Part shown: one piece after another, positions 9,335 to 15,435 of the stretch
Numbering within the stretch: position 1 is the stretch's first letter
Layout: each line of letters begins with the position of its first letter
From: Micromonospora sp. NBC_01796
GTDB taxonomy: Bacteria; Actinomycetota; Actinomycetes; Mycobacteriales; Micromonosporaceae
Length of the DNA: 64,000 nt
Assembly: GCF_035917455.1 (NCBI RefSeq)
Contig: NZ_CP109078.1
Coordinates: 3,844,001-3,908,000, forward strand
Direction: 5' to 3'
Translations under genes and position numbers: made by a program
Notes under the pieces: generated by a model
What the model was told of the DNA's origin: nothing
The model's database searches: none
The model's input: the letters and a program-made list of their open reading frames with translations, nothing else

Positions 9335-10000
9335 GTGAGCGACGTGGCCGCATCGCCGGTGGATGGTGAGCTGGAAAGCTTCAGCCTGGTGGAACTGGCC
9401 GTGCTGCGGCTGAGCCGCGAGATCCTGAGCGGCAAGAGTGATCCCGGCCAGCGCCTGGTCGAGGAGCAGCTGACCCGGCGGCTGGGGATCAGCCGGGCAC
9501 CGTTGCGGGAGGCGCTGCGGCTGCTGGCCCAGCAGGGGCTGGTCGAGCACGTACCGCGCCGGGGAGCCAGGGTCGCCACCCTCTCCGACCGGGACGTGGC
9601 CGAGCTGTACGCCGTACGGGACGTGCTGGAGCGGCACGCGGTGGAGTCGGCGTTGCCGGTGGCGCAGGACAGTGACCTGAGCGGGTTGCGGGACGCGATC
9701 GAGCGGATGCGCGAGGCGACCGCGTCCGAGGACCGGTTGGGGGTGGCAGAGGCGCACCGGGCGTTCCACGTGGCGGTGGTCGCGCTCGCCGGCAACCGCC
9801 AGCTCACCGTGATCTACGAGTCGATCCTGGTCCGGTTGCAGCTCTACATGGCGGTAAACCTGCGCCGGGAGTCCGAGAACGCACAGCCGTCGGACGCCGT
9901 ACGCCGGCACGAGCGGCTGCTCAAGGCGGTGGCGGCGGGGGAGCCGGCAGCGGTGATCGCCGAGTTGGGCGCGCACGGGGGCCGTTCGTACCTCGACTGA
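9335..10000 (+). CDS. GntR-family regulator, FCD subfamily
   Basis: A 221-residue cytoplasmic repressor-type protein. It has an N-terminal winged helix (residues about 20-85: LSREILSGKSDPGQRLVEE, then LGISRAPLREALRLL) and a C-terminal all-helical FCD ligand domain (residues about 92-215) with acidic and His residues suited to metal or carboxylate binding (DVLERHAVE, AEAHRAFHVAV). It lies directly upstream of the allophanate hydrolase operon on the same strand, 142 bp away. That gap holds two CGACA/TGTCG palindromes, so it is the likely local regulator and its effector is probably a pathway intermediate (inference). Confidence 0.88.
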   Translation: MSDVAASPVDGELESFSLVELAVLRLSREILSGKSDPGQRLVEEQLTRRLGISRAPLREALRLLAQQGLVEHVPRRGARVATLSDRDVAELYAVRDVLERHAVESALPVAQDSDLSGLRDAIERMREATASEDRLGVAEAHRAFHVAVVALAGNRQLTVIYESILVRLQLYMAVNLRRESENAQPSDAVRRHERLLKAVAAGEPAAVIAELGAHGGRSYLD

Positions 10001-10080
10001 TCCGGGTCCGGCGGGCTCCCGCTGCCGGCCGGAGTCCGGCGGCGGTGAACCGAACTGCCGACGGGCGGGGGAGTGATCCG

Positions 10081-10133
10081 CGACACATTGTCGTTACCTT
10101 TGCCGCCGTTGGCGGAAACAGAAACTGTCGACA
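10081..10133. promoter_or_regulatory. paired palindromes, candidate GntR operators
   Basis: CGACA-CAT-TGTCG at 10081-10093 and TGTCGACA at 10126-10133 share the same half-site. The second overlaps the putative -10 hexamer GACAAT (10130-10135), where a bound repressor would block RNA polymerase. FCD-type GntR proteins commonly bind short palindromes of this kind. Confidence 0.5.
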
Positions 10134-10135
10134 AT
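10130..10135 (+). promoter_or_regulatory. putative leaderless -10 of the allophanate hydrolase operon
   Basis: GACAAT followed by seven bases and ATG 10143, with no Shine-Dalgarno site. TTGGCG at 10109-10114 is a possible -35 with a short 15-bp spacer. Confidence 0.35.
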
Positions 10136-10142
10136 CGACCGT

Positions 10143-11993
10143 ATGGCAGCCCCGACATCCCCGCTGACCGACCTCCGGCAGGCGTACACCGGTGGCCGGC
10201 GGACCACCGTCGACACGGTGGAACAGGTCCTGACGGAGTTGGCCCGCGAGGACGACCGGAACGTCTGGATCAGCACGGTGCCGCCGGCCGAGCTGCGGGC
10301 CCGCGCAGCCGACCTGCACCGGATGAGGGACCGGATGGACCGGCTCCCGCTCTACGGGGTGCCGTTCGCGGTCAAGGACAACATCGACGTCGCGGGGCTG
10401 CCCACCACCGCCGGCTGTCCCGAGTTCGCGTACCTGCCCGAGCGGACCGCCCCGGTGGTCCGGCGACTGCTCGACGCGGGCGCGATCCTGGTCGGCAAGA
10501 CCAACCTCGACCAGTTCGCCACCGGGCTGACCGGATCGCGGTCGCCGTACGGCAGGGTCGAGAGCGTCTTCGGCGGCGGTCTCGTCGCCGGCGGCTCCAG
10601 TTCCGGTTCGGCCGTCGCGGTCGCCGCCGGCTCGGTCACCTTCGCACTGGGTACGGACACCGCCGGCTCCGGTCGGGTGCCGGCCGCCCTCAACGGCATC
10701 GTCGGCCTCAAACCGACCCGAGGACTGCTCAGCACGTCCGGCGTGGTGCCGGCGTGCCGCTCGCTGGACTGCGTCTCCGTCTTCACCGCCGAGGTGACCG
10801 ACGCGGTGACCGTCCTGGAGGTCGCCCGTGGTGTCGACGCCGAAGACCCGTGGAGCCGGCCGCTGCCGGCTCACCTGGTCGAGCCGCGCGACCCGGCGAC
10901 GCTCCGGCTCGGTCTCCCGCCCGTGGCACAACTCGACTTCTTCGGCGACCAAGGCCAGGCCGACCGGTACGCACACAGCCTCGCCGGGCTGACCAAAGCG
11001 GTGGCCGGCACGTCCCCGATCGACCCGGTGCCGCTGCTCGAAGCCGGTGACCTGCTCTACCAGGGCCCCTGGGTCGCCGAACGGCTGGCCACCCTCGACG
11101 GTTTCCTCCGGGCACGTCCGGACGCGCTGCTGCCGGTCACCCGTACCGTCCTGGAGAGTGGCCGGCGGTTCGACGCGGTCGACACGTTCCGGGCGCTGCA
11201 CCGGTTGCAGGAGCTCCGGGCCTGGACCGACCGGCTCTGGGAGCGGGTCGACGTGCTGGTGCTGCCGACCATCGGGACCACGTTCACCCTCGCGGAGATC
11301 GCCGAGGAGCCGATCGCCCGCAACCTGGTGCTCGGCCGGTACACCCAGTTCGTCAACCTGCTCGACCTGGCCGCCGTGACGATCCCGAACGGCTTCACCG
11401 CCGACGGCCGCCCGGCCAGCCTCACCCTGATCGGACCGGCGTTCAGCGACACCACGCTCGCCCGGCTCGCCGCCGCGATCACCGCACCGGACCAGCCGGC
11501 TGTCGCTCCCGCGCCACCCGCGAACGGGAGCGCGGTCACGCCTGAGCGGATCGACGAACCCGCGCTGCTGGTCGCCGTGGTCGGTCGGCACCTGACCGGT
11601 GAGTCGCACAACGGTGAACTGGTCGAACGCGGAGCGGTGCTGGCGGGTACGGCGTACACGGCTCCGCTCTACCGGCTCTACCGCCTGCCCACGCCGGACG
11701 GGACCGGGCTGCCGGGTCTGGTCCGGGTGAGCACCACCGGGCACTCCGGCACCGGGGTGTCGATCGAGGTGGAGCTCTGGCGACTGCCCCCGACCGCCCT
11801 CGGCGGCCTGCTGGACGGCGTACCCGCCCCGCTCGGGCTGGGCCGGCTCCGGCTCACCGACGGGCGCGAGGTCCTCGGCTTCCTCTGCGAGTCCTACGCC
11901 GCCGGCGCCGGAACCGAGGACATCAGCGCGACCGGCGGCTGGCGGGCGTACCGCCGGACCGTGGCATCGACGACAACAGGGAGGACCACATGA
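10143..11993 (+). CDS. atzF: allophanate hydrolase (AtzF-like)
   Basis: Cytoplasmic amidase of 616 residues that hydrolyses allophanate, releasing ammonia and CO2. The amidase-signature domain fills residues about 20-450, with a Ser-Ser-Lys triad read as Lys78 (PFAVKDN), Ser152 (GGSSSGS) and Ser176 (DTAGSGR). The spacings of 74 and 24 equal those I recall for AtzF of Pseudomonas sp. ADP (Lys91, Ser165, Ser189). The second, GGCT-like domain of true allophanate hydrolases is present at about 475-605, which separates it from generic amidases. First gene of the operon; its TGA overlaps the ATG of the next gene. No biotin carboxylase partner is nearby, so allophanate is more likely to come from biuret-type compounds than from urea carboxylation. 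Confidence 0.93.
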
Positions 11994-12679
11994 CGCGGAT
12001 AGGGCCGGTCAAGGCCGACCCGTACCTCTGGCCGTACGACGGTTCGGCTCCGGTCGAGCGCACCGCACTGCTCTGCATCGACTGGCAGACCGACTTCTGC
12101 GGGCCGGGCGGCTACGTCGACAGCATGGGTTACGACATCGGGCTGACCAGGGCAGGCCTGCCGGCCACCGCCCGACTGCTCGCCCACGTCCGGGCGCTCG
12201 GGATGCTGGTCGTACACACCCGGGAGGGACACGATCCGGACCTGTCCGACCTGCCCGCCAACAAGCGGTGGCGGTCCGCGCAGATCGGCGCGGAGATCGG
12301 TGCTCCCGGCCCGCGTGGCCGGATCCTGGTACGGGGCGAGCCGGGCTGGGAGATCGTGCCCGAGGTCGCACCGGCACCGGGGGAGGTCGTGGTCGACAAG
12401 CCCGGCAAGGGCGCGTTCTACGCCACCAACCTCGACCTGGTGCTGCGTACCCGGGGCATCACCCACCTGATCCTCACCGGGATCACCACCGACGTGTGCG
12501 TGCACACCACGATGCGGGAGGCCAACGACCGGGGCTACGAGTGCCTCATCCTCGCCGACTGCACCGGGGCCACCGACCCGACCAACCACGCCGCCGCGCT
12601 GCACATGGTGACCATGCAGGGCGGCGTCTTCGGTGCCGTCGCCACCGCCGACGACGTCATCAACGCCACCACGACCTGA
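11990..12679 (+). CDS. biuH: cysteine hydrolase, biuret hydrolase-like
   Basis: A 229-residue isochorismatase-superfamily amidohydrolase. The triad is read as Asp31 (CIDWQTDF), Lys137 (VVDKPGK) and Cys170 (TTDVCVHTT), with Gln210 (MQGGVFG). Spacings 106, 33 and 40 equal those I recall for biuret hydrolase of Rhizobium leguminosarum (Asp36, Lys142, Cys175, Gln215). Predicted to convert biuret to allophanate and ammonia, feeding the coupled AtzF-like enzyme. The ATG overlaps the atzF stop (ATGA). It is a diverged paralogue of the next gene. Other family members act on N-carbamoyl compounds or ureidoacrylate, so biuret is a strong inference, not proof. Confidence 0.82.
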
Positions 12680-12711
12680 TCCGGCACCCCCCGAGTCGTT
12701 GAGGAGTGGTC

Positions 12712-13398
12712 ATGCGCAGCGTCGACGCGCGCCCTTCCCCGTACACCTTCGACCCCGCGACCACCGCGCTGCTGGTGATCGACATGCAGCGCGACTTCCT
12801 GGAGCCCGGCGGCTTCGGCGAGAGCCTCGGGAACGACGTCGCCGAACTCCGGCGCACCATCCCCCCGCTGGCCGCGCTGCTGACCGCCGTACGGGCGGCC
12901 GGTCTGACCGTCATCCACACCCGTGAGGGCCATCGGCCCGACCTGTCCGACTGCCCACCGGCGAAGCTGCACCGGGGCGCCCCGAGCAAACGGATCGGTG
13001 ACCCCGGCCCGAACGGCCGGATCCTGATCCGGGGCGAGTACGGCCACGACATCATCGACGAGCTGAGGCCGGTCGCCGGTGAGCCGGTGGTCGACAAGCC
13101 GGGCAAGGGCGCCTTCTACGACACCGAACTCGAATCCCTGCTCGCCGAGCGGGGGATCCGCAGTCTGCTGGTGACCGGGGTGACCACCGAGGTCTGCGTA
13201 CACACCACTGTCCGGGAGGCCAACGACCGGGGGTACGAGTGCCTCGTGCTCGCCGACTGCGTCGGGTCCTACTTCCCCGAGTTCCAGCGGATCGGGCTCG
13301 ACATGATCGCCGCCCAGGGCGGGATCTTCGGCTGGGTCGGGGACTCCGCCGACCTGCGCCACGCACTGCACACCACGTCCGTGTTGCAATCCTCCTGA
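12712..13398 (+). CDS. second cysteine hydrolase, possible triuret or ureido hydrolase
   Basis: A 228-residue isochorismatase-superfamily hydrolase and paralogue of the preceding gene. The triad is read as Asp24 (VIDMQRDF), Lys129 (VVDKPGK) and Cys162 (TTEVCVHTT), with Gln202 (AQGGIFG). The ATG at 12712 is chosen because GAGGAG ends five bases upstream; the GTG at 12706 is part of that ribosome site. It shares HTREGHxPDLSD and [10 protein letters not shown] with its neighbour but differs around the pocket (for example [10 protein letters not shown] in place of TNHAAALHM). Two such enzymes in one operon fit successive steps, such as triuret to carboxybiuret and biuret to allophanate. Substrate assignment is inferred. 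Confidence 0.75.
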
Positions 13399-13410
13399 CC
13401 GGGAGCAGTC

Positions 13411-15018
13411 ATGGTCAAGATCGAGTCGTCCGCCGCCCCGCTGCCGTACTGGGTCCGCGGCGACACCAACGCCTTCTTCGGCTTCGGCGTCAACGTCCTG
13501 GTCAACGTACTCACGTTGACCGGGCTCTGCCTCGGAGTGATCAAACTCGGCTCCGGTGACGTGTTCGGCACCATCCTGCCCGCGCTGGGCATCGCCCTGG
13601 TCGCCGGCAACGTCTACTACACGCTGCTCGCCCGCCGGCTGGCCCGCCGGGAGAACCGGACCGACGTCACCGCGCTGCCGTACGGGCCGAGCGTGCCACA
13701 CATGTTCATCGTCATCTTCGTGATCATGTTGCCGATCTACCTGCGTACGCAGGACCCCCGGCAGGCCTGGCAGGCCGGTGTCGCCTGGGCGTTCATCATT
13801 GGCGTGATCGTGCTCATCGGCGCGTTCGTCGGCCCGTACATCCGCCGGTACGCGCCGCGCGCCGCACTGCTCGGCACCCTCGCCGGCATCTCCATCACCT
13901 TCATCTCGATGAACCCGGCCGGTCAGATGTGGCGGATGGCCTGGATCGCCCTGCCGGTGCTGGCGCTGCTGCTGATCGGCCTGCTCACCGACGTCAAACT
14001 TCCCGGCAACATCCCGATCGGCCTGGCCGCCCTGCTGCTCGGTACGGCCATCGGCTGGATCGGTGGGGCGATGTCGGTGCCGGACGTGAGCGCCGCGGCG
14101 CGGGACATCGCGTTCGCCGTACCGTCGTTCGAGTTCGGGTTGCTGGTCGACGGGCTCACCGACATGGCGCCCCTGCTCGCCACCGCCATCCCGCTCGGGG
14201 TCTACAACTTCACCGAGGGCATGACAAACGTGGAGAGCGCGGCCACCGCCGGTGACAACTACAACCTGCGCAGCGTGCTGCTCGCCGACGGTGCGGGTGC
14301 GGTGGTCGGGGCGGCGCTCGGCTCCCCGTTCCCGCCCGCGGTCTACGTCGGGCACCCCGGCTGGAAGGCGGCCGGTGGCCGGAGCGGCTATTCGATGGCC
14401 ACCGGCGTGGTCATCGCGCTCCTCTGCTTCCTGGGCATGTTCGGCCTGTTGTCCACCATCTTCCCGACCGCGGCGATCGTACCGATCCTGCTCTACATCG
14501 GACTGCTGATCGGGGCGCAGGCGTTCCAGGCGACTCCCCGGGCCCACGCGGCGGCGGTGGTCGCGGCGCTGATCCCGAACATCGCGGCGTGGGCGACCGG
14601 TCAGATGGACAACGCCCTGGCCGCTGCCGGTACGAGCGCCGCCGAGGTCGGCGATGCCGCGCTGGCCGGCGCCGGGGTGGTGTACGACGGGCTGCTGGTG
14701 CTCGGTCAGGGCGCCATCCTCGCCGGGCTGGTGCTGGGCGCACTGGTCGCGTTCATCATCGACAAACGCTTCTGGCAGGCGACGAGCACAGCCGGGGCGG
14801 GAGCGGTCCTGTCCTTCATCGGGTTGATCCACGGCCCGCAGATCGAGTGGAACGCGAACGGTCAGGTCGCCCTCGGTTACCTCTTCGTCGCACTGATCTG
14901 CGCCGCCTTCGCCCTCGCGAAGATCCCCCCGCGCGTACCCGACCCCGACGAACAGGATCTCGACTCCCCGCCCACCCCGGAACCCGCCCCCGTTCCCGCC
15001 CCCGCCTCGTCGGTCTGA
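13411..15018 (+). CDS. NCS2/AzgA-like permease
   Basis: A 535-residue integral membrane protein with about 12-14 helices. The central stretch (FTEGMTNVESAATAGDNYN, LLADGAGAVVGAALGS, then GGRSGYSMATGV) matches the nucleobase-cation symporter-2/AzgA fold, whose members import purines, pyrimidines or similar planar nitrogen compounds. The C-terminal 30 residues are a Pro/Glu-rich tail. Starting 12 bases after the second cysteine hydrolase, behind GGGAGCAG, it is clearly in the same operon. The likely cargo is therefore the pathway substrate (biuret, triuret or a related ureide), which is inference from context. Confidence 0.8.
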   Translation: MVKIESSAAPLPYWVRGDTNAFFGFGVNVLVNVLTLTGLCLGVIKLGSGDVFGTILPALGIALVAGNVYYTLLARRLARRENRTDVTALPYGPSVPHMFIVIFVIMLPIYLRTQDPRQAWQAGVAWAFIIGVIVLIGAFVGPYIRRYAPRAALLGTLAGISITFISMNPAGQMWRMAWIALPVLALLLIGLLTDVKLPGNIPIGLAALLLGTAIGWIGGAMSVPDVSAAARDIAFAVPSFEFGLLVDGLTDMAPLLATAIPLGVYNFTEGMTNVESAATAGDNYNLRSVLLADGAGAVVGAALGSPFPPAVYVGHPGWKAAGGRSGYSMATGVVIALLCFLGMFGLLSTIFPTAAIVPILLYIGLLIGAQAFQATPRAHAAAVVAALIPNIAAWATGQMDNALAAAGTSAAEVGDAALAGAGVVYDGLLVLGQGAILAGLVLGALVAFIIDKRFWQATSTAGAGAVLSFIGLIHGPQIEWNANGQVALGYLFVALICAAFALAKIPPRVPDPDEQDLDSPPTPEPAPVPAPASSV

Positions 15019-15021
15019 GCC

Positions 15022-15435
15022 ATGGGGGTGGAGACGGGCGTGGAGTTGGCGGTGGATCGGGGTGAGGTGGTGGCCGAGGTGATGGCGGCCTTCCTCGCGT
15101 ACGAGGAGGCGTTGGTGGCGGGCGATCCGGAGCGGATCGTCGGGTACTTCTGGGATGCGCCGCAGACGGTACGGTTCGGCATCGCCGACCATCAGGACGG
15201 CTTCGAGGAGCAGCGGGCGTGGCGGGCGGCCCAGCCGCCGCTGCCGCCGGGCCGGTGGCTGCGGGGCACCCGGGTCACCACGTTCGGTGCCGACTTCGCC
15301 GTGGTCACCACCCTCTTCGGGTACGCCGACGGCGACGCGACCGGACGCCAGTCCCAGACCTGGGTACGCCTGCCGGTCGGTTGGCGGATCGTCGGCGCGC
15401 ACGTCTCCGAACCGCAGTCGACGGTGGTGCCGTGA
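15022..15435 (+). CDS. AtzH/HpxZ-like protein (DUF3225, SnoaL-like)
   Basis: A 137-residue single-domain protein of the NTF2/SnoaL fold; RFGIADHQDGFEEQRAWR and the C-terminal WVRLPVGWRIVGAHVSEP are typical of the AtzH/HpxZ group. AtzH is reported to hydrolyse 1,3-dicarboxyurea to allophanate, with Tyr22 and Arg46 essential. Here Tyr27 (FLAYEEAL) and Arg51 (TVRFGIAD) have exactly the same 24-residue spacing. It starts four bases after the permease and is the last gene of the operon. AtzG and AtzE, its usual partners, are absent, so either the carboxybiuret amidase role is taken by one of the cysteine hydrolases or the protein acts on another ureide. Confidence 0.75.
   Translation: MGVETGVELAVDRGEVVAEVMAAFLAYEEALVAGDPERIVGYFWDAPQTVRFGIADHQDGFEEQRAWRAAQPPLPPGRWLRGTRVTTFGADFAVVTTLFGYADGDATGRQSQTWVRLPVGWRIVGAHVSEPQSTVVP

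Follow-up and report, generated by a model that had tools for sequence, protein, structure and literature searches.

The 64,000-nucleotide stretch of the Micromonospora sp. NBC_01796 genome analysed here (the window; positions 3,844,001 to 3,908,000 of contig NZ_CP109078.1, the genome being one 8.56 Mb contig) carries six closely packed genes, encoding a GntR/FCD regulator, the allophanate hydrolase AtzF, two cysteine hydrolases, a permease and an AtzH-like protein, that probably constitute a self-contained operon for scavenging nitrogen from triuret and biuret (Table 1). A preliminary description of this DNA had recognised a GntR gene and five tightly spaced genes, and six plus-strand frames were indeed found at positions 9335-15435; the tight packing stands, whereas the range of 4-32 bp given for the gaps is slightly off, the intergenic distances being 142 bp between the GntR gene and atzF and then -4, 26, 12 and 3 bp. 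Pfam assignments, in gene order, are GntR plus FCD, Amidase plus AH_C, Isochorismatase for both hydrolases, none for the permease, and AtzH-like. Because the gene set, sought in other genomes as the preliminary description had proposed, recurs elsewhere, it is not a chance grouping.

Table 1. Genes and putative control elements of the operon, in window coordinates.
Feature	Position	Strand	Size	Basis and remarks
GntR/FCD regulator that probably controls the operon locally	9335..10000	+	221 aa	PF00392 and PF07729 over cut-off; conserved palindrome downstream in relatives
GlnR-type box AC-n9-AC	10085..10097	+		Putative; start 42 bases upstream of the palindrome
Palindrome GTCGACAATCGAC, candidate GntR operator	10127..10139	+		3 bp before atzF start
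AtzF, allophanate hydrolase, amidase and AH_C domains	10143..11993	+	616 aa	TIGR02713; 4gyr; GPWVAER motif
BiuH, biuret hydrolase	11990..12679	+	229 aa	NF050097; 6xjm; BiuH-type residues
TrtA-type triuret hydrolase	12706..13398	+	230 aa	6xix; TrtA-type residues
Permease, candidate triuret (or ureide) importer, UraA/SLC26-like fold	13411..15018	+	535 aa	Predicted structure, Foldseek, tracking with TrtA
AtzH-like protein, candidate carboxybiuret decarboxylase	15022..15435	+	137 aa	PF11533; pocket residues

The two cysteine hydrolases are paralogous but distinct. The first scores 417.3 bits against NF050097, over the curated cut-off of 370, and its best match among solved proteins is the Rhodococcus BiuH 6xjm (expect value (E) 5.3e-115); it carries the Asp-Lys-Cys triad and the Gln, with the 106/33/40 spacing given for biuret hydrolase in the preliminary description; the second hydrolase has 105/33/40. 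The second falls under the same cut-off, at 268 bits, and is closest to the solved Herbaspirillum TrtA 6xix (E 8.8e-85), sharing 62% identity with the assayed Herbaspirillum enzyme. In work on the triuret pathway (PMC7948467, cited here and below for the part of its text available), TrtA is divided from BiuH by F35, N41, E160, Y187 and I205 versus Y, Y, D, T and V, with Q202 common to both. These diagnostic residues place the two hydrolases of the window on opposite sides of the divide: BiuH has the Y/Y/D/T/V set, and the second protein holds the triad together with the five TrtA-type residues and Q202, a set kept in all 80 TrtA loci that were fetched and kept out of 577 confirmed. The identification of the first hydrolase as BiuH and of the second as TrtA-type is thus well supported by sequence comparison. 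The Ala134/Ser marker of the same paper is not clean: Ala is found in the window BiuH, and Ser in some of the TrtA loci. A RutB-type identity was considered for both hydrolases and rejected, at 120 and 131 bits against a cut-off of 378.

The allophanate hydrolase scores 694 bits against TIGR02713 (cut-off 511), matches 4gyr at E 2.7e-150, and carries an AH_C domain that scores 128 bits with PF21986. The Lys-Ser-Ser spacing of 74/24 noted earlier is obtained when the first Ser of the SSS is counted, and becomes 75/23 from the middle Ser. Neither a cyanuric acid hydrolase (AtzD) match nor a urea carboxylase over the cut-off was found in the genome, in keeping with the preliminary description, but the AtzD negative is weak, since 14 control genomes were equally silent; for urea carboxylase the best genome score was 517 bits against a curated cut-off of 1304, which the control exceeded in 1 of 14 genomes.

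Sequence comparison leaves the permease without a family: no Pfam or NCBIfam model matched at E 0.001 (only MotA_ExbB appeared, at E 0.26), and no solved protein in the PDB matched it in sequence. Its AlphaFold2 model, with a predicted local distance difference test score (pLDDT) of 88.5, nevertheless retrieved SVCT1, UraA, SLC26Dg and UapA in Foldseek at template modelling (TM) scores of about 0.5, so that the earlier label 'NCS2-like' applies to the predicted, UraA-type fold and not to family membership. The permease is present in 74 of the 80 TrtA loci (the contig ends in L035). In a sample of 394 genomes of the class, with BiuH in 35, TrtA in 33, both in 26 and the permease in 32, the permease occurs in 32 of the 33 TrtA genomes and in none of the 361 without TrtA, 9 of which have BiuH only; twice it sits away from TrtA (G053 and G209). 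In a sample of 200 genomes of the family, 55 of 61 BiuH-TrtA genomes have it. Because the permease follows TrtA rather than BiuH, triuret is its likeliest cargo. In public records it is annotated as a 'regulator' at L093:8719-10302 and L094:8700-10301.

The AtzH-like protein scores 132.7 bits against PF11533 (cut-off 27) and 125.6 bits against NF033625, under the cut-off of 135 for HpxZ. AtzH has been proposed to decarboxylate 1,3-dicarboxyurea in a pocket formed by Tyr22, Arg46, Arg63, Arg66, Arg73, Phe94, Arg96, Gln106 and Gln108 (PMC6219798, likewise cited for the available part). All of these residues are kept in the window protein except Arg66, which is replaced by Gln, and Arg96, replaced by Tyr. 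Both arginines are missing from AtzH in all 55 loci with a BiuH-TrtA context (Gln/Tyr in 53, His/Tyr in one, His/His in one), a set that combines 18 loci from the 80 TrtA loci with 37 of the 61 family genomes, the latter as 1 kb pieces with context taken from the family survey, and that includes some genomes twice; Tyr22 and Arg46 are kept in 54 of the 55, L138 having Arg at position 22. By comparison, where AtzE is nearby both arginines are kept in 23 of 23; in the survey of AtzH homologues used here, 30 of 56 placements became loci. Ten more loci of that survey, in which the short flanking sequence showed no labelled gene, also read Arg/Arg at these positions. In three second AtzH copies from the window's family Arg66 is retained and position 96 is occupied by Ala, Pro or Arg, and the solved protein 2owp has Cys and Ser at positions 66 and 96. 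Among the AtzE-linked domains of one actinobacterial family, all 14 have Arg66 and 13 have Arg96 (of 15 loci, 14 gave a usable match). Arg66 is thus the better marker; and since actinobacterial AtzE-linked domains retain Arg66, phylum as the sole cause of the residue split is weakened.

Arg66 and Arg96 would, we infer, hold the second carboxylate of the AtzH substrate, and a pocket without them would fit a one-carboxylate substrate such as carboxybiuret. Carboxybiuret is what TrtA yields; it decays spontaneously, or is decarboxylated by TrtB, to biuret, on which BiuH and then AtzF act (PMC7948467). Rhizobium, Agrobacterium and Salipiger have plasmid clusters in which the gene for a small cupin adjoins a BiuH-type gene, and in Agrobacterium also a TrtA-type gene; related cupins occur in L062, L074 and L083, and Cupin_7 was found in the four cupins tested. 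No cupin was found in the window operon, the best of five cupin queries giving E 0.13 outside it. Both hydrolases occur in 23 of the 80 TrtA loci; AtzH accompanies them in 18, a cupin in 2 and neither in 3, and no locus has AtzH and cupin together. The cupin queries were themselves drawn from five of the six cupin loci, so that L074 is the sole independent find.

The control region is also conserved. The core GTCGAnnnTCGAC lies just past the GntR gene in 31 of 36 regions, the window included, and such core sites number 42 in the 80 loci, where mononucleotide shuffles gave 1.05 on average, with one in the window; a few of them lie inside genes or before GntR. The palindrome pattern TGTCGANNNTCGAC has 18 exact genome matches listed, one of which is TGTCGACAATCGAC, and 493 matches with at most one mismatch against 112 for a reversed control, and therefore cannot define a regulon. 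Upstream of the 35 exact GTCGACAATCGAC sites (34 loci plus the window, related rather than independent sites), the GlnR consensus A[C/T]-n9-AC, as given in the available text of PMC3662644, begins 40 to 42 bases away in all 35, compared with a mean of 0.8 and a maximum of 5 in 500 draws of random positions and a mean of 1.6 in shuffled upstream sequence. The motif was tried after the alignment had been inspected, first in the strict form AC-n9-AC, present at 27 of the 35 sites, and then widened to the published consensus. An upstream GTnAC-n17-GAAAC was dropped as a shared element, being found at only 10 of the 35. The conserved palindrome and upstream GlnR-type box suggest nitrogen control, in which GntR would quite plausibly repress from the palindrome just before atzF while GlnR activates from the upstream box under nitrogen shortage.

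Within the family sample, BiuH and TrtA occur together in 61 of 200 genomes, with match starts 642-800 bp apart, and AtzH lies within 2.5 kb of the pair in all 61; the best AtzH match among the other 139 genomes is 30.3 bits. Within the window's own genus, one further genome (G489) has the operon and another (G452) does not.

These data point to a pathway in which, as seems fairly likely, the permease would import triuret; TrtA would release one ammonia from it to give 1-carboxybiuret; and the AtzH-like protein would, on a modest balance of the evidence, speed the decarboxylation of this intermediate to biuret, the job of TrtB. BiuH would then very probably convert biuret to allophanate and ammonia, and AtzF allophanate to ammonia and carbon dioxide. 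The earlier reading of the locus as a biuret/triuret scavenging operon is well supported and, from the BiuH score and the TrtA residues, can be refined to an order of triuret, biuret, allophanate and ammonia. Triuret, a by-product of urea, accompanies urea used as fertiliser and is also formed when uric acid is oxidised (PMC7948467). A bolder proposal, tentative and put somewhat below an even chance, is that BiuH-linked AtzH is a distinct carboxybiuret decarboxylase that replaces the cupin TrtB through loss of the two pocket arginines that would hold a second carboxylate, and that a family of triuret transporters has its first member in the permease.

Several observations weigh against these proposals. 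For the permease, one TrtA genome of the class (G202, 1 of 33) lacks it, as do six family genomes, all of one genus, in which AtzH directly follows TrtA. For AtzH, the BiuH-type proteins form one clade (tree support 0.889), and the residue change may therefore be a single event; Arg66 and Arg96 variants are not among the weaker variants reported in the available text of PMC6219798; and L153 combines TrtA and AtzF with an Arg66/Arg96 AtzH, no AtzE being seen within its 3.4 kb. The identity of the cupin beside BiuH or TrtA with TrtB is no more than probable. In 22 of the 26 two-hydrolase class genomes, all of one family (Frankia and its kin), the hydrolases lie at least 35 kb apart or on separate contigs.

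Other such points favour a specific alternative, in which the hydrolases act as stated, carboxybiuret decays alone, and AtzH acts on some other unstable N-carboxy compound or is non-catalytic; this has a real, if minority, chance of being correct. Carboxybiuret decays by itself with a half-life of about 20 min (PMC7948467), and 3 of the 23 loci have neither cupin nor AtzH. A strong AtzH occurs in only 2 of the 26 class genomes with both hydrolases, the remaining 24 having weaker AtzE-linked domains only (15) or none at E 1e-10 (9), and one genome, G143, has BiuH and AtzH (L194:6774-7879; Ala66, Tyr96) with no TrtA match. Against this alternative stand the unbroken co-occurrence of AtzH with BiuH-TrtA across the 61 family genomes, the retention of Tyr22 and Arg46 in 54 of the 55 BiuH-context loci, and the fact that cupin and AtzH were never found together.

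It is improbable that the second hydrolase acts on a different ureide within a wider ureide pathway. Among 50 TrtA-type genomes selected from the 80 loci, BiuH is missing in 26, and in 17 of these 26 loci the AtzF paired with TrtA is short and lacks AH_C, so that a triuret chain in such genomes would lack the biuret step. The assayed TrtA, however, acts nearly on triuret alone (PMC7948467), the window enzyme is close to it in identity and has every TrtA-type residue, and BiuH adjoins it in the window. A cyanuric acid operon of the Pseudomonas sp. ADP kind that has lost its first genes is very improbable, for although AtzH and AtzF are common to both, AtzD is unmatched in the genome (a weak negative), AtzE and AtzG are not among the operon genes, TrtA is present, and the AtzH lacks Arg66 and Arg96.

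Other arrangements of these genes were encountered. In L031, L045, L060 and similar loci, from genomes without BiuH, a short AtzF without AH_C, TrtA and the permease stand under the same palindrome. In L079, L088, L093 and L094, TrtA is grouped with AtzE and AtzH, and in three of the four with AtzF; no BiuH-type gene was seen in these loci, though the L079 genome has one elsewhere, and the arrangement is possibly a BiuH-free triuret route. A small isochorismatase-like hydrolase (IHL) paralogue lies next to BiuH and AtzF in L195, L198, L200 and L201, with Ser, Ala, Gly and Ser, by eye, at the catalytic Cys position. Near TrtA, L048:11319-11714 encodes a stand-alone AH_C domain, and L084:12620-13981 a carbamate kinase fused to the C-terminal part of an allophanate hydrolase, beside AllG and FdrA-like genes. 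TrtA homologues are listed on 272 plasmid records, of which 78 are from Escherichia; identity is 66.4% in the E. coli entries listed, a number of which have chicken, hen or duck as their source. A search for the permease gave 5 records, with no Escherichia among them. Downstream of the operon, the gene at window positions 15570-16370 matches no Pfam family and, judged by eye, begins like a lipoprotein.

The preliminary description knew of no account of such an apparently self-contained pathway in actinobacteria. The triuret pathway, however, was described in 2020 from Herbaspirillum sp. BH-1 and Rhizobium leguminosarum 3841, and because the same paper also mentions a Corynebacterium, isolated earlier, that grows on triuret and includes assays of BiuH from Rhodococcus (PMC7948467), neither the pathway nor its actinobacterial use is wholly new. 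What does appear new is the AtzH- and permease-bearing form, of which no description was found in the open-access literature as far as it could be read. Nitrifiers are credited with 'trtA, biuH, and atzH' in the abstract of PMC12625717, but since the available body text speaks of atzF and the word atzH occurs once, atzH is read there as a slip. The operon thus supplies a candidate importer and a candidate second decarboxylase for the triuret pathway, and shows that pathway, together with the signals that probably control it, in one actinobacterial family, where 61 of the 200 genomes sampled have it. If the bolder proposal is true, the TrtA product would be processed in bacteria by three routes or more (cupin with BiuH, AtzH with BiuH, and AtzEG with AtzH). 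The Arg66/Arg96 pair may predict which N-carboxy compound a given AtzH protein handles.

With the Herbaspirillum and Rhizobium pathway, TrtA-(TrtB)-BiuH-AtzF, the window shares clustered TrtA-, BiuH- and AtzF-type genes and the diagnostic residues (PMC7948467); it differs in having AtzH, with no cupin found, and a GntR palindrome with a GlnR-type box. Where the window operon has one permease, an Agrobacterium TrtA-BiuH cluster has instead a BMP-type ATP-binding cassette (ABC) transporter. The permease shares its predicted fold with the NCS2/NAT, SLC26 and SLC4 transporters (UraA, UapA, SVCT1), at the TM values given above, in the absence of a sequence-level family match. The cyanuric acid operon atzDGEHF of Pseudomonas sp. 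ADP (PMC6219798) has AtzH and AtzF in common with the window operon, which is without AtzD, AtzE and AtzG and whose AtzH is without the two arginines. Finally, plasmid clusters of Paroceanicella and Terrarubrum share a TrtA-type hydrolase, the permease family and AtzH (and, in Terrarubrum, AtzF), but in these AtzE and an AtzG-like DUF4089 protein replace BiuH, and their AtzH keeps both Arg66 and Arg96.

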